From positions 1-64,000 of the IMG/VR virus record IMGVR_UViG_3300045921_000463: a stretch of DNA of 64,000 bases; one strand, written 5' to 3'. The notes below the pieces were generated by a model. That model saw only the letters and a program-made list of their open reading frames with translations. It did no database searches and had not been told where the DNA came from. This DNA is from a virus. Below, piece by piece: positions 4,849 through 46,081 of this stretch. Position 1 is the stretch's first letter. The number at the start of each line of letters is the position of its first letter. A program made the translations under genes and the position numbers.

Positions 4849-5036
4849 AACGGTTTCCTTTCGTGACGAGTTCGAGAAGAGCGTTTCTTTTGGCAGGCTT
4901 GCAGGCTCGATGAGTGACACGTAGAAAACTTTGAAGGGTATTGGATATGGTGAGATAGCCGGTATCGTTTTCGTCTTTGCAGGAAGGCTTTTATTGACGT
5001 TTGCAACAGTGCTGGTTTTTTATCTTACCCGAGACC

Positions 5037-26770: not shown

Positions 26771-27312
26771 TGATCGCTTCTTTTGATCCTGATCTTGCGA
26801 CTGACAACAGATGGAGTCTTTGCAGAAACCGTTTTGTCGAGGGAACGCCGCGTCTTGCGCTTTATGTCGGTAGCCTGCGGAACCACGATGAACTCGTCAT
26901 TTGAGTTCTCAAGATCGAGTTCCTTGATGCGGATGTTGTAGTTGTCGCCCTTGACCGGCGTTTCCAATAACAGGGTTACATCGGAACCGAGAATATTGGT
27001 AACGTCAGTCTTGCTGACGCGAATGCAGCGAAGGAACTGGTCTTCCGTGATTTCGCCGCCTTTCAACTTGGCGTACAGATCGGCAGGGTTGATGATGCTC
27101 GACTCCGCTGCATCGTAGGTAATCTCGTGACCGTTGGTGCGTATGGTTGTACCAAGCGTCCATTCGTTGGACTGAATCCTGTTCTTGAAGATGTTGCGAA
27201 TTTCCGTGGAAAGACGATTGAAAGCGTTGGTGTGCTCCTTTTTCAGGCTATGCTGTTCAAGAAGCTTTACGAGAGCGGTTTTCAATTCGTTCGGAAGGGG
27301 CAACCTTGGCAT
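26767..27312 (-). CDS. Hypothetical protein (181 aa) in the replication operon
   Basis: ATG 27312 follows GGAGC. The N-terminal helix-rich part (MPRLPLPNELKTALVKLLEQ) is followed by KKEHTNAFNRLSTEIRNIFK, then a beta-rich middle and a strongly basic C-terminus (KRKTRRSLD ... RKIRIKRSDQ). It lies between the polymerase and ThyX and is translationally coupled to both, which suggests a replication role, but I recognise no family. Confidence 0.65.
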   Translation of the reverse strand: MPRLPLPNELKTALVKLLEQHSLKKEHTNAFNRLSTEIRNIFKNRIQSNEWTLGTTIRTNGHEITYDAAESSIINPADLYAKLKGGEITEDQFLRCIRVSKTDVTNILGSDVTLLLETPVKGDNYNIRIKELDLENSNDEFIVVPQATDIKRKTRRSLDKTVSAKTPSVVSRKIRIKRSDQ

Positions 27313-30300
27313 TGCAACGCTCCATGGGTTTTGTAGTGGTTTTATTGTATCGAGAATTACTACTGTTGTAAAGTTTTTTCGTCGATAGTGCTGCTAGCTT
27401 TTCTTCAACCTCGCGCATTTTTGCAATAGTCTTTTCGTCCTGTGAATTTATATCTCTTAATTTTTTAAGCTCATCATTAAGAATGTGTCTGATTATATCC
27501 GTGTAAGTCCTGTTGCCGGACTCTACAGAGAAGTACTTTGGTTTTACTTCGTAGGTTTCGGCGAGGTTTCTGCCGATTTCGGCGTCAGCTACAATAGGAA
27601 CGGTAGGCTTCCATCCGAACCACTTTTCGAGCGGCAGATTTTCCATTGTTTTCTTGACAAGCCGCATCGTTTTGGCGGCATACTCTTCCTTGGCAATACA
27701 GATGATGGAATCGTGGATGAATCCGCATATCTTGATGTGCTCCCACAACCCTGTATTGCGCAGATAGGGAACAAGAAGACCGATTGCCATGAGCCCAAGA
27801 TCGGAAGCAAAGCTCTGCACTGGCGAGTTGATGCCCTGACGTATTGCCTGCTTCGCAATGGCCTCGTCGGAACTGTCAACCATCGGAAGATGTCGTATGC
27901 GTCCGTTGAAGGCCCGCACATATTTGTGCTTCTTTACCCATTGCTCGACGCGGCTATGCCATTCTGCAAGGCGGGGATACGTCTCAAAGAACATTTCTCT
28001 AAGAGATGCCGCTTCCTCGTCCGTAAAGTCGATACCGTAATCGGTTTTGGCGTATTCGCGGAATTTTTTCCACCACATGCCGTATAAAAACCCGAAATTG
28101 ACGCTGTTTCCAGAGATGGTGACACGTCCGTTTCGTCTGACAACAACATAGGAGGACGGCACAGTGACACAGTATACTGTCTGATTGTCAGCAGTCGATA
28201 CGGACCAGTTATTGCGCTTGAACGGATTACGCTCATTGCTTCTGAAAGAAACCTTGAATGTCTTGTTTGAGCAAGAAACGAGATTGCTTGTTCTGTTGGA
28301 CAACGTACAGACAATCTGCACAAAATTGGCGTTCTTCCTTTTAGAAGACGAATAGAAACACAAGCTTCGTGACGACTTTTTGTAACTATGCCCATCCCAA
28401 CGGGGCAACTCGTCGAGAAAGGCTTCCTTATCTATTACCGACAGTAGCGACACATCAAAAGTCTTGTCCGGCATGTATGCCATTATACGCTTTGCGACAG
28501 AATCCTTTTTCGGCAAGTAAAAGAAAGTTACTGCCTTTTTGTCAGAATCGAAAAACACACTGGTAGAGTAATCGACTCCAGCGGCGTCGAGCAGTTCACG
28601 GCATCTGTTTATTTTACGTTGCTTTGAAAAACCCAAACGGATTGCTCCATTGTTTTGGTAGCTTCCGTCAGCCTGAACCATTACAAGCAATCTGGTAAAC
28701 AAGGGATCAGCATCAGTTGAATCTGGATAGTAACCTGCATGGCAGCTTAGTACGCTGCCAGCCGTATCGTTGTAGGTAAGGTCTTCCGCAGCACGCTCAT
28801 ACGGCATCTTTGTGTACCGACTGAACAAGAGCAGCCTGTGGTTTGGGGTTACGGCAAGATCGGTACTCTTGTCTTGTATGATTACTACTTTCTGATTTTC
28901 GTAGCGATGAAAAGCCAACGGCTTTACAAAGCTGATCACGCCGCTTTCCCACTGCGCAACTTCAACATCCTGCGGCAACCTGTCGAACCTGACAAATCCT
29001 GAGGTTGTCAGGATTTCCGTATCGCCAGTGTAGCATTTTGATTGGAATCTTTTGAGGTCTTGAACCTCTTTTGAAAGCTTCAAGAATTCTTCAACAGATA
29101 TGCCCATGATACCCGCCGCAGTCGAGCGGTGAATGTCGCCGCCTTCCTGATAGACCTGCATCATACGTTCGTCGCCGCTGATCATTGCTGCGATTCGCAA
29201 CTCGGCCTGCGAAAGGTCAAGCTGAATGTAGACATGGCCTTCCGGGGCTTGAAACGCCTTTCTGAAAGTCTTTGCCATTTTCCCGCGCTTGGGAAAATTC
29301 TGACCATTGGGCGAATCTGAGCAACTACGACCTGTAGTCGTCTTGTGAAGAGAATAAGAAGGTCTGATACGCCCGTCATAGATGTACTTGTAGAAGCCCG
29401 AAATGTATGTATTCAGCATTTTCTGGTTCTTGATGTAGTCAGTAAGCCGCGCAATGAACGGATGGTCAGCAACATAGTAGGGAAGCGCCGTCTTTGACGA
29501 AACGGACGGCTTGCCGGTCTTGGTGTACTGCATTGGCTTCAAGCGCAGACCGTCGGGATGGTTGTAAAGGTAATCGACAAGGATTGCGTCACGATCAGGT
29601 TGCAGACCTACGCCTGTGTCTTTGTGAATGGACTTGATACTTACTGGAATCTGCGAAAGCAGCCATTCCTTTTCCTTCTCTTGGATGCCTCGCAAGTATT
29701 GCTCGAACTCTCTTAGGGCATCCACGTTTATGTAAAAGCCGGTCTGCTCCATGTAGCAGAAGGCGCGAATAGCGCGCATTACAGTCTTGCGATAGCAAGC
29801 CCAAAGTCTCTTGTCGCGCCGCAGTTTCGGCAATAACGTGTTATAGAGACGCAAGGCAGCGTCTGTATCGCCGCATCCGTAAGCTATCATCTTGTACGGC
29901 GGAACAAGGTCCATGCGCGTCTTGGACTGATGCACGGGGTCTTTGTTGAACTCGTCCGCATACCCCGCCATGGCAGGGACATGAAGTCTTGCAAGATCGT
30001 CTAGACTCTTGGAAAGGAGGTTTTCATCAATAAGGTGCGCCATCAGGATGGTATCGGCATGATAATTGGCAATCTGTATGCCGAGCTTGTAATGAAGCAT
30101 CAGCCAGTCAAATTTCAGGTTATGGCCGATGACCTTTACTTTCGTATTCTCAAGCAGCCGTTTCAGTTGGGCAACTATTTTCGGTCTGTAGGTTTCATAG
30201 CCGCCCGGAAAGTCGATCACGTTGTGAAAGCGCAGATCGCCTGCATCATAATCTACAGGCACAATGATACTTTCACCCGGCTTGATGCCGAGTTGAACCG

Positions 30301-30985
30301 TGAGAAGCCTAGTACTCGGATCGAACGGATACAATCCGACACTTTCGACATCGAGGGAAATGAGGCTTGGCGGGTCTTTCAGCAGATGTTCAAGATCGTA
30401 ACACCAACGATAATTCACAGCGATCCTTGCGTGTGAGGCTTCGGCCTTGAACCCTCCTCTTGCAACGCGACCGAGAGTTTCAAGGTCTGCGAGGAAGATG
30501 TTCTCGGACTCCGGGTGCTTCCTTGCGAAGAATGGTGAGGTCATGGGAAGAACAGGAGTAGTTCCGAAGCTTTTGCTGGACTCCAGTACCTGCCCTCGAA
30601 CCTTGGTTATCTGGACACTGCGCCCGATCACCTGTTGACAGGCTTTGGCACCCATCGGAACGATAATGAATGGCCGGAGTTCGTTTACAACCTCGACAAA
30701 GTGAGGCTCCCATTCCTTTAGAATCGAAGATACTGTCCTGTTGCTTGTGGATTCTTCGTAGGTAATGGAACGCGCGCACGAGAGAAATATTACGTCCTTT
30801 TCTTTCAGGCCGGTATGTTTCAATACGCGGGAACCAAGCCATTCAAGATCGTCCTTGCGAAGTGGAATGCTCAATGGCTGCGCAGAAATTACCGGATCGA
30901 GTACGACCATTACCTTGGCAGTCGTTCTTCCGAGGTGCGGAAGTCGTATTTCTACGCTGGCGTTTCTGTTGGTTGCCGCACTCAT
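27257..30985 (-). CDS. polA: Family A DNA polymerase with N-terminal UDG-like domain and an intein
   Basis: 1242 residues. About 20-195 resemble a family 4/X-type uracil-DNA-glycosylase fold (KVMVVLDPVISAQ, LRPFIIVPMGAKACQQVIG). A DnaQ-type 3'-5' exonuclease follows: Asp212/Glu214 in SLDVESVG, Asp293 in HNLKFD, Tyr369/Asp373 in YGCGDTD. Polymerase motif A is DLSQAELR from Asp590. Motif B (R646, K650, then SVNFGFLYG) is split after K650 by a 310-residue intein. Motif C is FIHDSI. The ATG overlaps the helicase stop as ATGA. This is the replicative polymerase of the phage; active enzyme requires intein excision. Confidence 0.9.
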   Translation of the reverse strand: MSAATNRNASVEIRLPHLGRTTAKVMVVLDPVISAQPLSIPLRKDDLEWLGSRVLKHTGLKEKDVIFLSCARSITYEESTSNRTVSSILKEWEPHFVEVVNELRPFIIVPMGAKACQQVIGRSVQITKVRGQVLESSKSFGTTPVLPMTSPFFARKHPESENIFLADLETLGRVARGGFKAEASHARIAVNYRWCYDLEHLLKDPPSLISLDVESVGLYPFDPSTRLLTVQLGIKPGESIIVPVDYDAGDLRFHNVIDFPGGYETYRPKIVAQLKRLLENTKVKVIGHNLKFDWLMLHYKLGIQIANYHADTILMAHLIDENLLSKSLDDLARLHVPAMAGYADEFNKDPVHQSKTRMDLVPPYKMIAYGCGDTDAALRLYNTLLPKLRRDKRLWACYRKTVMRAIRAFCYMEQTGFYINVDALREFEQYLRGIQEKEKEWLLSQIPVSIKSIHKDTGVGLQPDRDAILVDYLYNHPDGLRLKPMQYTKTGKPSVSSKTALPYYVADHPFIARLTDYIKNQKMLNTYISGFYKYIYDGRIRPSYSLHKTTTGRSCSDSPNGQNFPKRGKMAKTFRKAFQAPEGHVYIQLDLSQAELRIAAMISGDERMMQVYQEGGDIHRSTAAGIMGISVEEFLKLSKEVQDLKRFQSKCYTGDTEILTTSGFVRFDRLPQDVEVAQWESGVISFVKPLAFHRYENQKVVIIQDKSTDLAVTPNHRLLLFSRYTKMPYERAAEDLTYNDTAGSVLSCHAGYYPDSTDADPLFTRLLVMVQADGSYQNNGAIRLGFSKQRKINRCRELLDAAGVDYSTSVFFDSDKKAVTFFYLPKKDSVAKRIMAYMPDKTFDVSLLSVIDKEAFLDELPRWDGHSYKKSSRSLCFYSSSKRKNANFVQIVCTLSNRTSNLVSCSNKTFKVSFRSNERNPFKRNNWSVSTADNQTVYCVTVPSSYVVVRRNGRVTISGNSVNFGFLYGMWWKKFREYAKTDYGIDFTDEEAASLREMFFETYPRLAEWHSRVEQWVKKHKYVRAFNGRIRHLPMVDSSDEAIAKQAIRQGINSPVQSFASDLGLMAIGLLVPYLRNTGLWEHIKICGFIHDSIICIAKEEYAAKTMRLVKKTMENLPLEKWFGWKPTVPIVADAEIGRNLAETYEVKPKYFSVESGNRTYTDIIRHILNDELKKLRDINSQDEKTIAKMREVEEKLAALSTKKLYNSSNSRYNKTTTKPMERCNAKVAPSERIENRSRKAS
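28106..29035 (-). other. Intein with LAGLIDADG homing endonuclease, inserted in polymerase motif B
   Basis: The intein runs from Cys651 to Asn960 of the polymerase (310 residues). It begins CYTGDTEIL (block A), has TPNHR at intein residues 64-68 (block B, with His), LAGLIDADG-like blocks LLVMVQADGSY (116-126) and FLDELPRWDG (206-215), and ends RNGRVTISGN before Ser961. The penultimate residue is Gly instead of the usual His, as in some active inteins. Excision would restore R-x3-K-x7-YG of motif B. The insertion point lies in the catalytic fingers, a favoured intein site. Confidence 0.88.
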
Positions 30986-32373
30986 CGCATGAAATCCAAC
31001 ATGCTGGGGTTGGGTGCAAGCGAGTTTCCTCGGCTTCGGGAAGATCGTGCCTGCGGCCTTTCCATTATTTCGATTCGCGGATCGTCCGGCTGCAAGAGCG
31101 AAAGGTCTATCGGCGAAGTCCTGTTTTCAGGATAGTTGCAGTACCAGTATCCGTCCTCGCCCTCGCGGCCCTTGAGAATGCCGAACACCCTTACCGATTT
31201 CTCGAAAGGATGAGGTCCGAGGTCCAGTCCGAAAACATGCGAAGCGGATTGGCCGATAACGTCGGTTTCGCCGATTACCTCGACTCCAAGGTGTGCTATC
31301 GGATTGAAGCGCCGCGTCGATCCTGCCTGCTGTTCTTCATTGCGCTTTTGTGCGGCGCGGCGTCTTTCCTCGGCCTGCCTGTTGAACTGCATGGTGCTGA
31401 CGATGGGTATTTTCCTGTCGGCAGCGCATTTTTTAAGTTCCTCAGCAACATCGGATATGGTTTCTCTGCGACCCGAGGAACCATATCTCTTTGTCTGCGG
31501 TTTTAGCAGGTACCCCGCGTCTATGTAGGAAATGTCGGGCTGGAACTGGTCTATGTAGGCTTCTACCTGCGGAACGGACCTGTCGAAATTGGCAGTCACC
31601 ATGAACAAGGGCTGCATTTCGTTCATTTCCGCTATGGAGCGGCGAACAAGGTCTTGAGACGCGGTTGACACCGTTCCTGTGCGTATCAGGTTCGGGTTTA
31701 TGCGGGAATGGAGACCTACCATTCGCCGCATCGTGGCACGTCCTTCCATCTCGTTCGAGACGAAAAGGATGCGATGACCCGCTTTCCATGCGTTATAGCA
31801 CTGGTATAGAAGCGACCACGATTTTCCACGACCTACCCTGCCTACCCACACGATGTGATCGCCGGGCTGATAACCGCCGGTAACGTCATCAACCGCATCC
31901 CAGCCCGTAGTTACGCCGCGAAGTCCGTGGTAGGTGCTGCTGTCTTCGAACTCTTGAAGAATCTGCGCAAGAAGCGCGCGGCTGTCCTCGACACCGGAAG
32001 AGTCCGGCCCGAACCTGCGGCGTATGCTCGCAATCTCGTCGATGATCGCAAGCATCGCGGATACGTCGGATTGAGAACCCTTGAAACTTTCTCCGAGTCT
32101 GGCATACGGCTCCCGTAACAGGTTATAGAAAGCCCTGCGCTTTGCTTCATCGTAGTAGTATGAAGATGGCTCGTCAGGGTATGCGTTGATGCTGAAACGC
32201 CGCCGAAGCGTGTTGATAGTCGGAAACTTGTTGTGCTGCGCTACATGTACTCTGACAAATTCGTAAAGTCGTTTTTCATCGTCTGTCCTGAGAAACTCGG
32301 ATGGTATGTTCAGGAGACGGGAGCGTGACTTTTCCTTTACGACGGAAAGGACGAGGCTGATACCGACGCTCAT
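30982..32373 (-). CDS. dnaB: DnaB-like replicative helicase
   Basis: A 463-residue DnaB/RecA-fold helicase. Walker A reads GRVGRGKSW around residue 179, after the typical TGWDAVDDVTGGYQPGDHIVWV. The following FVSNEMEGRATMRRMV and the later SYIDAGYLLKP, where the Asp replaces the Walker B acidic pair, then IVSTMQFNRQAEERRR match the DnaB core. N-terminal 130 residues form the helical domain. It unwinds DNA at the fork. It is coupled to the polymerase by ATGA. A palindrome copy lies in its coding sequence at 32115-32128. Confidence 0.85.
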   Translation of the reverse strand: MSVGISLVLSVVKEKSRSRLLNIPSEFLRTDDEKRLYEFVRVHVAQHNKFPTINTLRRRFSINAYPDEPSSYYYDEAKRRAFYNLLREPYARLGESFKGSQSDVSAMLAIIDEIASIRRRFGPDSSGVEDSRALLAQILQEFEDSSTYHGLRGVTTGWDAVDDVTGGYQPGDHIVWVGRVGRGKSWSLLYQCYNAWKAGHRILFVSNEMEGRATMRRMVGLHSRINPNLIRTGTVSTASQDLVRRSIAEMNEMQPLFMVTANFDRSVPQVEAYIDQFQPDISYIDAGYLLKPQTKRYGSSGRRETISDVAEELKKCAADRKIPIVSTMQFNRQAEERRRAAQKRNEEQQAGSTRRFNPIAHLGVEVIGETDVIGQSASHVFGLDLGPHPFEKSVRVFGILKGREGEDGYWYCNYPENRTSPIDLSLLQPDDPRIEIMERPQARSSRSRGNSLAPNPSMLDFMR

Positions 32374-33020: not shown

Positions 33021-33674
33021 TTACTCCCATTCAGGTATGTTTTTCGCAGGTTTCGCTTTGCGAGGTCGCTTTATAGCAGGCTTTTTCTCGGATTGCAAGT
33101 CCCGGATTTTTGCTCTCAGCTTCATGATTTCGAATTCGCGTTTTCTGATTTCTTCCTGAGCGATGCGAACGACCTTGATGAGCGATTCCTGCTTCTCGGC
33201 AGCGCGCTCGTTTTCGCGCTTCCGTTCCGGCTCCTCGAAAACGCCATCCTTGAGCCGCTGGTAGTCGTAGAAGCACGAAACGTACAAGTCCGCGAAACGG
33301 AAAAGCCACGCCAGCGCAGGATACTCGGGATACTTCGAAAAACTGCGGAACTGCCGGGAATGCCGTATCGGCTTCCAGTTGTGAACGACGAAACCGGCAA
33401 AGTCCTGTACCGACAAACCCGCATCGCGGAGCGGTACCACGATCAACCGTTTCAGTTGCGGCACATCCCGTTTCTTCGACATCTGCATTACGGGAGCCGC
33501 AGGGAAGGACTCCCTGATCGCGGCACGCCAATAGCTATCGAAGATTCGAACGCCATCTTCGATAGTATACCGCTTCGACCACTGGTCCAGCTTTTGCGCT
33601 TTCAGCGTCAGCGCGTGCGCTATCGCTTCCTGAGCGGAGGTGAACTGCTTGAGTGTATGTGTACGTTTTTTCAT
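33021..33674 (-). CDS. Hypothetical replication-region protein with coiled-coil C-terminus (217 aa)
   Basis: First gene of the replication operon after the control region, with AAGGGTAGAG before ATG 33674. The N-terminal 130 residues are mixed (VVPLRDAGLSVQDFAGFVVH), then residues about 140-200 form a charged coiled coil (RKRENERAAEKQESLIKVVR and on) with a basic Lys/Pro-rich tail (KKPAIKRPRKAKPAKN). No family recognised. Position suggests an initiator or regulator, unsupported by motifs. Confidence 0.6.
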   Translation of the reverse strand: MKKRTHTLKQFTSAQEAIAHALTLKAQKLDQWSKRYTIEDGVRIFDSYWRAAIRESFPAAPVMQMSKKRDVPQLKRLIVVPLRDAGLSVQDFAGFVVHNWKPIRHSRQFRSFSKYPEYPALAWLFRFADLYVSCFYDYQRLKDGVFEEPERKRENERAAEKQESLIKVVRIAQEEIRKREFEIMKLRAKIRDLQSEKKPAIKRPRKAKPAKNIPEWE

Positions 33675-33822
33675 ACTCTACCCTTGTTTAGATTTTTCTC
33701 GATTACACTAATTTCACATTTTTACTCTGATCTTTAGTTTTTAGATTTTTCCCTTTCTGCCTCGCGCGCGTACGCGCGCGTAGGTTGTATGTTGTTTAAT
33801 ATACCGTAAGGTATATTATATA

Positions 33823-33842
33823 GAGTCCGGCTGACCGGACTC
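33823..33842. repeat. Inverted repeat GAGTCCGG-N4-CCGGACTC, copy 1
   Basis: A perfect 8+4+8 palindrome with spacer CTGA. It lies immediately upstream (minus-strand sense) of TATAAT at 33820-33815, so a bound protein would cover the -35 region of a promoter for the replication operon. Confidence 0.9.
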
Positions 33843-33844
33843 TG

Positions 33845-33864
33845 GAGTCCGGCTGACCGGACTT
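33845..33864. repeat. Inverted repeat GAGTCCGG-N4-CCGGACTT, copy 2
   Basis: Same sequence as copy 1 (spacer CTGA) with one mismatch in the outermost base pair, 2 bases after copy 1. The two copies start 22 bases apart, about two helical turns, so two dimers could bind on one face. Confidence 0.9.
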
Positions 33865-33959
33865 AGATTTTTCACAAAAACTGCTTTGTTTTGACCATTT
33901 TTTGAAGAATCCAGAATGTATGTTGAAGAATACGAGATATAAGAATTTGACATTTGAAC

Positions 33960-33979
33960 GAGTCCGGTGGACCGGACTC
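33960..33979. repeat. Inverted repeat GAGTCCGG-N4-CCGGACTC, copy 3
   Basis: Perfect 8+4+8 palindrome, spacer TGGA, located just after the stop of the winged-helix gene and 95 bases from copy 2. No T run follows on either strand, so it is not an intrinsic terminator. Copies 1-3 together look like an operator or looping array. Confidence 0.9.
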
Positions 33980-33991
33980 TGTAAAAATTTG

Positions 33992-34549
33992 TCAACGGTT
34001 TTCATCTTTTTCCCTCGCAATAAAGCCGCGAAGTGCCGCTCTGTCGAGCAAAATTTCATACTTGGAAGCGTAATGGATTGTGGCTTCCATTATAGCTGAC
34101 ATTATGGCTTGTCCGCGTTTTTTGTCGGATAGTAGGGCTTTTTTCAGTTCTTTTTCCGAACACACGTAATCGTACGGATAACAAGTTATTGAGAAGCCGC
34201 GTTTTTCTTGTTTTATCAGACCCATTTGTTTTAGTTTGTTGACAGACTCGTAAAATTGTGATCGTCCTACTGCTGGCGCAGGTATGAGGAATTTCAGTTT
34301 CGCATAAGGCGTTTTTCCGCGTATGAGGTCTTCATACGTCATTGGTACGGGATCGGCTGCTCCAAACCTTGAAGTACGATCCCATATCCCCATGATTATC
34401 GCCTGCTCTGTCAGAGTCAAATATGGCAATATTGCGAACCGCAGAAACGTGACCGAATCAAGCGCGTCATTGCGCAGATAATCGAAGGCTTGACAAACTT
34501 TCCGGTATTCGCTATTTATCATGACAGCTCCTCTCGTGGCTTCGTGCAT
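33992..34549 (-). CDS. Winged-helix DNA-binding protein (replication initiator- or regulator-like)
   Basis: Residues about 40-125 (LTEQAIIMGIWDRTSRFG, then MTYEDLIRG ... GRSQFYESVNKLKQMGLIKQ) form a winged helix with the typical recognition helix and a wing containing KRGFSITCY. Both ATG 34549 (GGGAG) and ATG 34522 (GAGGAG) have good sites. Initiator or regulator function is inferred from position: it sits between the inverted-repeat control region and an antisense small RNA that covers its leader. No nuclease or ATPase motif. Two starts could give two isoforms. Confidence 0.65.
   Translation of the reverse strand: MHEATRGAVMINSEYRKVCQAFDYLRNDALDSVTFLRFAILPYLTLTEQAIIMGIWDRTSRFGAADPVPMTYEDLIRGKTPYAKLKFLIPAPAVGRSQFYESVNKLKQMGLIKQEKRGFSITCYPYDYVCSEKELKKALLSDKKRGQAIMSAIMEATIHYASKYEILLDRAALRGFIAREKDENR
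34490..34518 (+). promoter_or_regulatory. Consensus-like plus-strand promoter
   Basis: TTGACA (34490-34495), a 17-base spacer and TATTTA (34513-34518), on the plus strand. Predicted transcription starts near 34525, inside the 5' end of the winged-helix gene, and runs outward. It is the only plus-strand promoter in the window that is paired with a plus-strand terminator. Confidence 0.7.
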
Positions 34550-34619
34550 TGAGTCTCCCTTTGCAGCTCCCTGTATGGGTGCTTCTCTGGTAGTTTTTCA
34601 ATGCAGGTTTCGCAGCTTG

Positions 34620-34648
34620 AAGTTACGACGAGGGGCGGCTGGAGTCAA
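34620..34648 (-). promoter_or_regulatory. Minus-strand promoter for the winged-helix gene
   Basis: Minus-strand TTGACT (34648-34643), a 17-base spacer and TAACTT (34625-34620). Leader to ATG 34549 is about 65 bases and lies entirely within the antisense RNA region. Confidence 0.55.
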
Positions 34649-34669
34649 GCAGACGGGCTTCGGCCTTTG

Positions 34670-34704
34670 GGGGGAGAGCAGGCAAGCACTCTCCCCCTTT
34701 TTTT
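34670..34704 (+). terminator. Plus-strand rho-independent terminator
   Basis: GGGGGAGAG (34670-34678) pairs with CTCTCCCCC (34689-34697) around a 10-base loop, followed by seven T (34698-34704). On the minus strand the stem is preceded by A7 and followed by CCAAAGG, so it works only for plus-strand transcription. Confidence 0.85.
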
Positions 34705-34760: not shown

Positions 34761-35147
34761 TTATAGCTCCTTTCTCTTGTCTATCAGACGTATTGGTAGC
34801 CCTGATTTGATGGCTTTTCGAACCCTGTTAACCATGTCGTCTGTTTCGCGTCCACCCGGAGCCGCCAATACCACGTGCGGGTTTGTTTCGCGCAGCATCT
34901 GGTTGTTTCTTATGACGCCCGCGGCGTCTCCAAGCTCGGACCACCTGGCAGGGAACACCCGTATTCTGAATCCTGCTTGTCTTGCAATACGGCCAGCCAA
35001 TCTGTCTGCGCCACGAGCACCGCCGTGTATAAGTTGTATCTGATCGCTTTCAAGATCATTACCGACAGCTTCGAAAATCCAGCGACGAAGTTTGTCTTCA
35101 TCGTGGAAATCCCTGCCGCCAGTAACAAGTAACCGCATTTTGATCAT
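34761..35147 (-). CDS. SLOG/DUF2493-family protein (128 aa)
   Basis: The N-terminal strand and loop MRLLVTGGRDF, the block IQLIHGGARGADRLAGRIA, and ARWSELGDAAGVIRNNQML match the DUF2493 (YspA/cpYpsA-related) branch of the SLOG superfamily, which binds nucleotides or related ligands with a Rossmann-like fold. At 128 residues it is the usual size. The biological role in phages is not established. Start at 35147 or ATG 35138; both have weak sites, so coupling to the upstream gene is likely. Confidence 0.8.
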   Translation of the reverse strand: MIKMRLLVTGGRDFHDEDKLRRWIFEAVGNDLESDQIQLIHGGARGADRLAGRIARQAGFRIRVFPARWSELGDAAGVIRNNQMLRETNPHVVLAAPGGRETDDMVNRVRKAIKSGLPIRLIDKRKEL

Positions 35148-43442: not shown

Positions 43443-44114
43443 TCAGCTCCTCTTTGTCAAGTTGATGAAAAACTGGATCAACCTAGATAGCCAACTGGAC
43501 GTTATAACCGGTTGTTGCGAAGATACAGGCACTGTGGTTGCAGGCTGCGCGCGCAACAGTTCCAGCGCTTCAACCTCGGTCAATCGTCGGATCGCTCGCG
43601 AAAAATCCACACGACCGCTTTCGTTCACTGTCCAGACCGGAATCTGGCCACTAGGGTAACGGCCATGACGGAACAGATCGCGCTCAGCTTCACGGCGCGG
43701 GATAATCGAGGCCGGTCGCCGCCAATTCATAAACGCCTCAGCCGCTGTCTCCCGCTTGCCTTCGTTCAGTTTTTGCGTCAAGGCGGCCCTCGCAATGCCA
43801 CCTGTATTGTAGTGAAACGAAACCAGCGCGTCAAACTCATGCTGAGCAAGCGGAACCTTTACAGCACGGCGCACATCTGCTTCGTAGGCAGCTATGTCAG
43901 ACGCAAATAGCCGAAATGCCTGACGGATTGCAGCATCAAGATCGGCTGGCATACCGCGCGACATTTTTTCGGGGTCCGGCGGCCCGGCTGAGGCGGTATG
44001 TCCTATTCCAAACGTCCAGACGTTTTTGCTGTCGAGATATGGTCCGGGCACTACGCCTTCGTGCCGGACGATGGCCAGCTTGCCACGGTCGGTGGTTCGA
44101 ATTGCTCCTGTCAT
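43443..44114 (-). CDS. Endolysin, GH24 (T4-lysozyme-like) muramidase
   Basis: The N-terminal EGVVPGPYLDSKNVWTFGIG fits the E-(x8)-D-(x5)-T triad of glycoside hydrolase 24: Glu19, Asp28 and Thr34. GIGHT completes the pattern. FHYNTGGIA follows, as in related lysozymes. It cleaves peptidoglycan glycan strands at lysis. At 223 residues it is longer than T4 lysozyme by a C-terminal extension ending in a hydrophobic segment (SWLSRLIQFFINLTKRS), which could act as a membrane or membrane-proximal tail. AGGGACA precedes ATG 44114. Confidence 0.93.
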   Translation of the reverse strand: MTGAIRTTDRGKLAIVRHEGVVPGPYLDSKNVWTFGIGHTASAGPPDPEKMSRGMPADLDAAIRQAFRLFASDIAAYEADVRRAVKVPLAQHEFDALVSFHYNTGGIARAALTQKLNEGKRETAAEAFMNWRRPASIIPRREAERDLFRHGRYPSGQIPVWTVNESGRVDFSRAIRRLTEVEALELLRAQPATTVPVSSQQPVITSSWLSRLIQFFINLTKRS

Positions 44115-44131
44115 TGTCCCTGCTCCCGCGT

Positions 44132-44314
44132 TTATGGTGAACCAGATAATGCCAAATCAAGCGTGAATTTCGGCAACTCCGCAAGCAATATCTCCGGGTT
44201 TAGCGACAACAAACCGCTCCGTTTATGCACCGCAACCGCCGTTTGCCAAACAATATCTTGCCATTTGGCGATTCGGGTAGTTAGGGTGAAAGCCGTAACA
44301 GCATCATCACTCAT
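44132..44314 (-). CDS. Small hypothetical protein (60 aa)
   Basis: ATG 44314 follows AAAGGAGG and lies within the end of the previous gene. The product starts MSDDAVTAFTLTTRIA with a helical middle (WQDIVWQTAVAVHKRSGLL). No family recognised. It closes the fibre cassette before the endolysin. Confidence 0.6.
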   Translation of the reverse strand: MSDDAVTAFTLTTRIAKWQDIVWQTAVAVHKRSGLLSLNPEILLAELPKFTLDLALSGSP

Positions 44315-44693
44315 TGTCCTCCTTTACTGCTGTCGAATCCATTGCTTTCACAGCGGTGTCAACTTCGCGCCAGCCGTCGGCGCCCGGCTCCGAGACGTTG
44401 CCCGCCGTGGTGCTGGCCCATGCTTTTCCTTTGTGCCAGACCTCGAATCCCTCGGGAAAGCCGCGCGCGCCCCCGTCGGCCTCGGTGTCGGCCCCGAATA
44501 TCTGCTGCCAGTGGGGCAGATACCGACCCTCGTGATGGCGAGTCCCCAGCCTCGGCAAGTCGGCGCAATCGCGCCAGATGCCGGGCAGGCCGATGCTGGC
44601 GCAGTAGGCAGCCGCGTCGGCTTCCTCGGGCGGGATTACGATGACTTGCACCACATTTTCGTTGTCGTCCAAGCGCGCTGCATAACGTTCCAT
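44307..44693 (-). CDS. Tail-fibre accessory protein with carbohydrate-binding-like C-terminus (128 aa)
   Basis: The start overlaps the glycine-rich protein stop as TGATG (GGAG upstream). Residues about 80-112 read EVWHKGKAWASTTAGNVSEP then GWREV, matching the chitin-binding-type module (W, aromatic-Gly-Asn, then W) found in phage fibres. The rest is an alpha/beta region (LDDNENVVQVIVIPPEEAD). Likely associates with the receptor-binding complex. Confidence 0.65.
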   Translation of the reverse strand: MERYAARLDDNENVVQVIVIPPEEADAAAYCASIGLPGIWRDCADLPRLGTRHHEGRYLPHWQQIFGADTEADGGARGFPEGFEVWHKGKAWASTTAGNVSEPGADGWREVDTAVKAMDSTAVKEDNE

Positions 44694-45565
44694 CAGGCCA
44701 CTCCGATCTTGTAGCGCACCACGACGATGCCCGACCCGCCGTTGCCGCCAAGCCCCGCCTGAGCGCCGCCACCACCGCCGCCCCTGTTTGTGGCGCCGTT
44801 CTGGGCGTTCACCGACAGGTTCGCCCCGTTGCCGCCGCCACCCGTGCCGCCAGCGCCGCCGGTGTTGCCGCCACTACCGCCGGTGCGTCCGCCGCCGCCG
44901 CCCCCGGCATAGACAACCGAGGTTCCGGTGATCGACGATGCAAGCCCGGCTCCGCCATTCCCGCCAAACCCATTGACCGCTGTCTGCCCCGCGGCGCCCG
45001 CTCCACCGCCCCCGCCGCCCGCCGCGATGTTGTTTCCGCCATTGGGCGAGCCCGCGCCACCCGCGTTGCCCTGCCCGGCGGTCCCCGCTCCGCCCGCGGA
45101 CTGCCGCGTTCCGCCGCCGCCGCTGCCGCCGGGCAGGCCCTGGGACGACTGCCCGGTGCCGACAACACCGCCCCCACCCCCGCCCAGCGCGGTGATGGCA
45201 TTGAAGCTGCTGCTGCTGCCCGACGATCCATTCGTGCCACCGGCGCCACCCGCCCCGCCAGCCCCCACCACGATGGGAAAGCTACCGGCGCTGATTTCGA
45301 CCGTGCCGCTCAGCATACCCCCCGCGCCGCCGCCGCCGCCCGCCGAGGTGCCCGCGCCCCCTCCGCCCCCGCCCCCGACGATGAGGTATTCGACCTCGCC
45401 GCCGCGCGTGACCGCAAGGATGCCCGAGGCGGTGAAGGTGTGCACCCGCCACTGGAAGCCGCCTGCGGTGATCGTGGTCTCGGCGCCGCCTGTGGCGGCG
45501 GTGTTGAAGCCTCTCCGCCCCCCGAATGGCGAACGAAGGCCGAAAGTGTCGAAGGGGTCACGCAT
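44693..45565 (-). CDS. Glycine-rich receptor-binding-type tail protein (290 aa)
   Basis: Start at ATG 45565. The first 60 residues form a beta-rich base (ETTITAGGFQWRVHTFTASG then LIVGG), followed by about 220 residues of Gly-rich runs (GGGGGGGAGTSAGGGGGAG and many others), the type that packs as polyglycine II helices in phage receptor-binding domains. The end reads GSGIVVVRYKIGVA. GC content is clearly above that of the neighbouring regions, and the gene belongs to the fibre cassette. Confidence 0.8.
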   Translation of the reverse strand: MRDPFDTFGLRSPFGGRRGFNTAATGGAETTITAGGFQWRVHTFTASGILAVTRGGEVEYLIVGGGGGGGAGTSAGGGGGAGGMLSGTVEISAGSFPIVVGAGGAGGAGGTNGSSGSSSSFNAITALGGGGGGVVGTGQSSQGLPGGSGGGGTRQSAGGAGTAGQGNAGGAGSPNGGNNIAAGGGGGGAGAAGQTAVNGFGGNGGAGLASSITGTSVVYAGGGGGGRTGGSGGNTGGAGGTGGGGNGANLSVNAQNGATNRGGGGGGAQAGLGGNGGSGIVVVRYKIGVA

Positions 45566-45836
45566 GGCTGACGCTCGCCACCGCTTGACCTTGGTAAGTG
45601 CGGGCATAGAGGCGGTTCGCACCAGTCAGCCCGGCAAAGTGCTCCGACATGACAATCACCAGCCCCTGACCTGACCTCAACAAAATCGCCCCGCGAAAAC
45701 TGGACGGCGGAGTTACGCCTACTGCTGCCTGTACAAGTATTGGAATATTGGAAATATTTTGCACTCGGCAGGTCGTGACGTTCGATGATGTCAGAAGCGT
45801 GGCCGTGGTGGTCACTGTGATGTTGGCAACAGGCAT
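45558..45836 (-). CDS. Small beta-rich fibre-cassette protein (92 aa)
   Basis: AGGAGG precedes ATG 45836. The product (MPVANITVTTTATLLTSSNV) is rich in Thr/Val with CRVQNISNIPILVQAAVG, and looks like a small beta-sandwich subunit. Its place between fibre genes suggests a tail-fibre or baseplate accessory. No name for the family. Confidence 0.6.
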   Translation of the reverse strand: MPVANITVTTTATLLTSSNVTTCRVQNISNIPILVQAAVGVTPPSSFRGAILLRSGQGLVIVMSEHFAGLTGANRLYARTYQGQAVASVSHA

Positions 45837-46081
45837 CGGGGCCTCCTGAGGTTCGGCAGGAAAAATCGGTGCAAGAGCGTAACGCTGGCTTTCGCCGCCC
45901 GTTTGGGCATGTCAATGGCGGTGTAGCGGGCCAGATGCGCGGCTGATTCATGGCCGAGCGCCTGCACCACGATATGGAAACGTCCGGTGCGCGCATCAAC
46001 GTCAGTCCAGACAATGCTGCTTGCAGTGCCACAACCACGACAGGTGGCATTGTTTGCAGAATTTGCTGTAAACTGTACCAT
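45812..46081 (-). CDS. Small Cys-containing fibre-cassette protein (89 aa)
   Basis: ATG 46081 overlaps the DUF2793 stop as TGATG. The N-terminal 45 residues read MVQFTANSANNATCRGCGTA, with a Cys-X2-Cys pair, then HIVVQALGHESAAHLARYTA. The last 35 residues are basic and lower in complexity. A zinc-binding or assembly role is possible; not recognised. Confidence 0.55.
   Translation of the reverse strand: MVQFTANSANNATCRGCGTASSIVWTDVDARTGRFHIVVQALGHESAAHLARYTAIDMPKRAAKASVTLLHRFFLPNLRRPRCLLPTSQ

Follow-up and report, generated by a model that had tools for sequence, protein, structure and literature searches.

Does the leader of a phage replication initiator gene carry an antisense RNA gene, and what would such an RNA act on? 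The question was raised by a stretch of 64,000 nucleotides, called the window here, which is part of an 80,456-b virus record. In this window an earlier note had placed a promoter and a terminator on the plus strand, over the leader of a minus-strand winged-helix (WH) gene, and had read the pair as a plasmid-like antisense control of the initiator. We analyzed the elements in the window, the same region in its relatives, and the known systems that resemble it.

Promoter and terminator elements over the WH gene leader

The three elements on which the earlier note was built, the plus-strand promoter TTGACA-17-TATTTA, the plus-strand 9-bp stem with T7, and the minus-strand promoter TTGACT-17-TAACTT nested in the same region, were found again with exact coordinates (Table 1). 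The stem of the terminator is formed by GGGGGAGAG (34670-34678) and CTCTCCCCC (34689-34697), separated by a 10-nt loop and followed by T7 at 34698-34704.

Table 1. Features of the initiator region in the window (predicted or observed by computation)
Feature	Position	Strand	Remark
DnaB-like helicase	30982..32373	-	anchor for finding relatives
g217, C-terminal half of split initiator (most likely)	33021..33674	-	
AT-rich stretch beside iterons	33788..33822	.	candidate unwinding element
Two adjoining 22-nt palindromic iterons	33823..33866	.	
Iteron, 22-nt palindromic unit	33960..33981	.	GAGTCCGGTGGACCGGACTCTG
WH gene, N-terminal half of split lambda-O-like initiator (most likely)	33992..34522	-	176 aa
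Antisense (pO-like) promoter TTGACA-17-TATTTA	34490..34518	+	-35 34490-34495, -10 34513-34518
Predicted leader of initiator mRNA	34523..34613	-	TSS inferred
Predicted antisense RNA	34525..34704	+	about 180 nt; 5' end inferred from promoter spacing
Shine-Dalgarno (SD) AGGAG of WH gene	34528..34532	-	complementary to antisense RNA
Sense promoter TTGACT-17-TAACTT	34620..34648	-	-35 34648-34643, -10 34625-34620
Intrinsic terminator of antisense RNA, hairpin and T7	34669..34704	+	predicted from sequence
Upstream SLOG-family gene	34761..35147	-	

Neither plus-strand element was listed by a generic promoter and terminator scanner, whose counts were at the chance level of shuffled sequences. The scanner misses these sites because the -10 lacks the final T and the loop is longer than 8. 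On the E. coli matrix the antisense promoter scored 8.5, while the cut-off of the main test below was 10. The promoter consensus of alphaproteobacteria is CTTGAC-N17-CTATAT. This consensus was applied to the window, whose closest isolate phages infect Rhodobacter; the site starting at 34489 (CTTGAC-17-CTATTT) agreed with it at 11 of 12 positions and was the sole plus-strand site that good in the 64 kb. The hairpin had the best T-tract (7 of 8) among the 13 plus-strand terminator candidates in the window. Taken alone, without relatives, the window elements make a modest case.

The earlier note had left two candidate starts for the WH gene, 34549 and 34522. The latter is most likely the start, because AGGAG lies just upstream of it and it aligns with the start in the related locus L002; 34549 was not favoured. 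With this start, the predicted leader lies entirely within the span of the antisense RNA except for its last 2 nt.

A probable split initiator around a candidate origin

Between the WH gene and g217 are an AT-rich stretch and three interrupted palindromes of 22 nt, and in most relatives one gene of about 300-600 aa stands in place of the two. g217 matched two proteins in their C-halves, RcKickapoo gp71 (E 6e-14) and HJ05_70 (4e-5). Profile comparison connected WH with the N-domains of the JP1_058/HJ05_70 group at prob 92.8 and E 3.8e-7; for g217, the link was to the C-halves, at prob 96.5 and E 9.3e-10. Two members of the group, HJ05_70 and JP1_058, match families of O-like initiators (phrog_678, 5e-8; PF04492, E 6e-5, which is below the curated cut-off). 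WH had no direct match in Pfam or PHROG, and Foldseek of its model (pLDDT 76, three sequences) returned nothing significant. Because of the profile links of both proteins and the iterons between their genes, WH and g217 are most likely the two parts of a lambda-O-type initiator that is divided at its origin. In JP1 and in the loci L044, L050, and L053, iterons were found with a spacing of 21-23 nt.

Conservation of the antisense unit in relatives

Relatives were collected with the helicase. A DNA search among phages gave no match to the window, the WH protein alone as a query found no relative in IMG/VR and phage records, and nothing was obtained with the helicase profile against bacterial genomes or with the HJ05 helicase as a query in IMG/VR. 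The helicase search led to L002 (68% identity), to the Rhodobacter phages RcKickapoo, RcDurkin, RcMenchie, and RcTiptonus (42%), and further to Agrobacterium JP1, Rhizobium RHph_I4, Aeromonas HJ05, and Pseudomonas PA_L9; 42 IMG/VR loci (L002 included) and the 109-kb circular Rhizobium plasmid p7 were among the helicase relatives.

The WH protein of L002 is only 34% identical to that of the window, yet every element of the layout is present. The -10 of the antisense promoter, TTGACA-17-TATAAA, lies on the start codon, an antisense terminator follows, and a sense promoter stronger than its window counterpart is nested between the two. The promoter-terminator unit was also found in the Rhodobacter phages, two viral contigs, HJ05, and the 109-kb Rhizobium plasmid. 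Its promoter reads TTGACT-16-TATATT in the Rhodobacter phages and L017, TTGACT-17-TAGAAT in L018, TTGACT-17-CATAAT in L021 (where the terminator is weak), and TTGACC-17-TACTAT in HJ05. The -10 is again on the start codon in the Rhodobacter phages, L017, L018, and L021. Relative to the start codon, the -10 ends at +4 in the window, -5 in L002 and L018, -7 in the Rhodobacter phages and L017, -3 in L021, and -39 in HJ05. A distant group (L033, L041, L044, L050, and L053) has its unit further upstream, 218-301 nt from the initiator gene. Thus the conservation in related phages, on which the earlier note had let its reading depend, was observed.

Units were counted with one fixed scanner, which required an antisense promoter with a score of 10 or more and, within the next 230 nt, an intrinsic terminator. 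Units were present in 12 of 43 homologous initiator leaders, where 0.17 were expected from the 5 units found on this strand outside the leaders, in 620,063 b (binomial P 1.5e-19), and in a narrower test near the start codon they were present in 7/42 against 2/563 genes (P 1.5e-7); both figures refer to loci that are related and not independent (L009 and L017 are close), to starts called by a simple method, and to thresholds chosen after inspection of several relatives. The window's own promoter (8.5) is outside the 12 and was counted in the narrower test only. No unit was detectable in the other 31 of the 43 leaders, including those of Rhizobium RHph_I4 and L338C, Pseudomonas PA_L9, and Agrobacterium JP1. 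The comparison with relatives makes the unit convincing and more than a product of chance, and it is very probably a genuine conserved sequence feature.

The plasmid relative (L064, NZ_CP071625.1), from Rhizobium bangladeshense, carries the same replication module with the antisense unit upstream of the initiator, and is probably a phage-plasmid. Several other features of the window were recorded. Its family A DNA polymerase (27257-30985) has an intein-like insertion of about 310 aa, with a Pfam Intein_splicing match below cut-off; the L002 polymerase has no such insertion, and that of RcKickapoo has a different insertion of similar size at another site, missing in RcDurkin. Positions 1-88 consist of four perfect 22-bp tandem repeats (GGGGTGGGGGGTCTATGTGAGG), and the GC content at 44001-46000 reaches 65%, compared with about 50% in the flanking sequence.

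Extent and fold of the predicted antisense RNA

The predicted RNA of the window had a folding z-score of -4.3 against shuffled sequences (-4.0 without the terminator), and that of L002 had -7.0 and -6.6 in two runs (-5.6 without the terminator). Sixty random stretches of the window gave a mean z of -0.4 and a minimum of -3.6. Both predicted RNAs are structured even beyond the terminator, with z below all 60 control stretches. An Rfam search of the window returned two tRNAs only and no known RNA family.

The RNA would end at 34704, short of the upstream gene, and the two do not overlap in the window, L002, or RcKickapoo. A cII-like cis target is therefore excluded there, leaving the initiator leader and the origin as cis targets. 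In the Rhodobacter phages (L009-L012, at about 4915-4960) the inner loop of the antisense hairpin is TTAGCGG in RcKickapoo and RcTiptonus and is inverted to CCGCTAA in RcDurkin and RcMenchie; differences flanking this loop group the four phages differently. The inverted loop is a hint, from four phages, of what would be expected if loop specificity mattered.

Given the long antisense stem in the window, pairing of the SD with sequence from the promoter region would be possible in read-through mRNA. The sequence at 34626-34642, GCCCCTCGTCGT, would be present in transcripts entering from upstream, where it could base-pair with the region around the initiator SD, and it is missing from the mRNA made by the initiator gene's own promoter. 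Sequestration of the SD in read-through mRNA is given as a side remark only, because the sense fold was unexceptional (z -0.9) and, by eye, the L002 fold did not share it.

Comparison with known antisense systems

The closest known system is lambda pO/OOP. Like lambda pO-oop-tO, the window has a leftward promoter of the sigma70 type at the start codon of the initiator, a short self-terminating RNA (predicted here), and an O-like initiator with iterons downstream, which in lambda are inside gene O. Used as a positive control, lambda gave pO as TTGAGT-17-CATAAT with a score of 11.0; its -10 stops 3 nt short of the O start codon, an offset within the range of the window and its relatives (+4 to -7). 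The likeness to OOP that we describe is one of position and layout. OOP is 77 nt, whereas the window RNA is predicted to be about 180 nt and, unlike OOP, spans the initiator SD and the nested sense promoter. In lambda, 52 bases of oop overlap cII (PMC5869508); in the window, the upstream gene belongs to the SLOG family and the predicted RNA does not overlap it. The window also differs in having the initiator as two genes with the iterons between them.

The P1 lytic replicon (repL) is a second precedent, set beside the window by description: it has a phage initiator, an origin thought to be inside the initiator gene, and antisense RNA control, the last as given in the title of Heinrich et al. 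1995 (cited in PMC9948254). Its initiator is unrelated as far as is known. Plasmid countertranscripts resemble the window in layout only. The repABC ctRNA gene, between repB and repC, also lies just upstream of an initiator gene and belongs to alphaproteobacterial hosts, and in p42d the origin is inside the initiator gene (PMC3155836). Membership in repABC was ruled out, since WH had no match to Pfam RepC at E<0.001 and no ParA was found. No clear sense-strand attenuator was seen in the window leader. The predicted antisense gene over the leader that the earlier note described held up, with its position conserved in related phages, and the plasmid as its closest precedent gave way to lambda pO.

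Proposed mechanism and alternative explanations

We consider it somewhat more probable than not that an OOP-like antisense RNA lowers initiator synthesis, by pairing and by convergent transcription, at an O-type split initiator. The antisense promoter on the first initiator codons would drive leftward transcription, and a structured RNA of ~180 nt would extend backwards across the leader with its ribosome-binding site and across the nested sense promoter before transcription halts at the intrinsic terminator ahead of the upstream gene. The RNA would pair with the initiator leader and mask the SD, and transcription from the antisense promoter would traverse the sense promoter. More genome copies would then give more antisense RNA and less initiator per genome copy, with the three 22-nt palindromic iterons and the AT-rich stretch between the initiator halves as the candidate origin. 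The elements and their conserved position, the split O-like gene, and the iterons come from the computational results, whereas production of the RNA, its pairing in the cell, and its effect on replication are what we infer. In lambda, a plasmid that carries oop and iterons inhibits rep-lambda phages (PMC3349717).

The promoter, not the RNA, may be what matters: leftward transcription would adjust initiation in cis, in line with a proposal made for lambda pR/pO, either by running away from the origin or by colliding with the sense transcript, and the RNA would be a by-product. Lambda pO mutants replicate less although oop RNA has no effect on the stability of O-P mRNA (PMC3985674), which counts against RNA pairing. 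The unit of L044, L050, and L053 is located to the left of the iterons, where it probably does not reach the initiator mRNA, and this placement points to action at the origin instead of on translation. In the window the sense promoter lies inside the antisense unit. The strong RNA folding past the terminator in the window and L002, and the inverted loop of the Rhodobacter phages, would however be unneeded for mere transcription, and we regard this explanation as clearly less probable than pairing with the leader, though one to be taken seriously. An older proposal for lambda oop, that the RNA primes or activates leftward DNA synthesis at a nearby origin, would fit the short leftward RNA upstream of the iterons in several relatives; it appears very unlikely here, as the predicted RNA end in the window is over 800 nt from the iterons and points away from them, and lambda experiments found DnaG primase sufficient (PMC3985674).

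It is also unlikely, though less so than priming, that there is no RNA gene; the hairpin would then serve the upstream operon as a bidirectional terminator, and chance or protein coding would account for the promoter match. Such an explanation would agree with the failure of the generic scan to find either element, with the weak promoter score of 8.5, and with the sense-strand T-tracts that the hairpins of L002 and the R. bangladeshense plasmid carry as well. The sense side of the window hairpin, however, has no T-tract, and the promoter-terminator unit is enriched among the leaders (12/43). Protein-coding constraint as the source of the conserved -35 was ruled out, because the motif occurs in differing codon phases, one shared by the window, L002, the Rhodobacter phages, L017, and L018 and another by L021 and lambda, and is located before the start codon in HJ05.

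Lifestyle and meaning for the phage clade

A ParB-N match was obtained in 6 of the 7 records searched, and neither ParA (PF13614) nor a tyrosine integrase (PF00589) was found in these seven. In the record of the window (G000), the ParB N-domain protein is at 73445-73714, outside the 64 kb; it occurs in related phages, with no detectable ParA. Within the wider clade, phagemid replication is documented for DLP5 (PMC5834331), and the Rhizobium p7 record is a circular plasmid. A phage-plasmid lifestyle of the window phage is plausible, and the idea of copy-number control fits a clade containing the phagemid DLP5 and a 109-kb circular plasmid. Since the arrangement, much like that of lambda OOP, recurs in distantly related phages, the RNA probably determines the timing or the frequency of genome replication.

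What is new is, very probably, a lambda pO/OOP-type arrangement in a phage clade outside the lambdoid phages, judged from the arrangement of the elements. It is possible, though on the doubtful side, that pO-type antisense RNA is an old and general control of O-type modules far beyond the lambdoids, acting on the initiator or the origin, with its use on cII a later addition and with loops setting incompatibility; the inverted loop would be a hint of such incompatibility between related phages. What lambda pO/OOP does in replication has been a matter of dispute for decades, in part since oop also acts on cII. Because the predicted RNA ends before an upstream gene that is not cII, any cis role would concern the initiator or the origin, and this pO/OOP geometry without a cII target opens the long-standing question to tests in phage isolates, for example RcDurkin. 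The results indicate an overlooked RNA gene in a clade of phages and phage-plasmids of roughly 80-110 kb.
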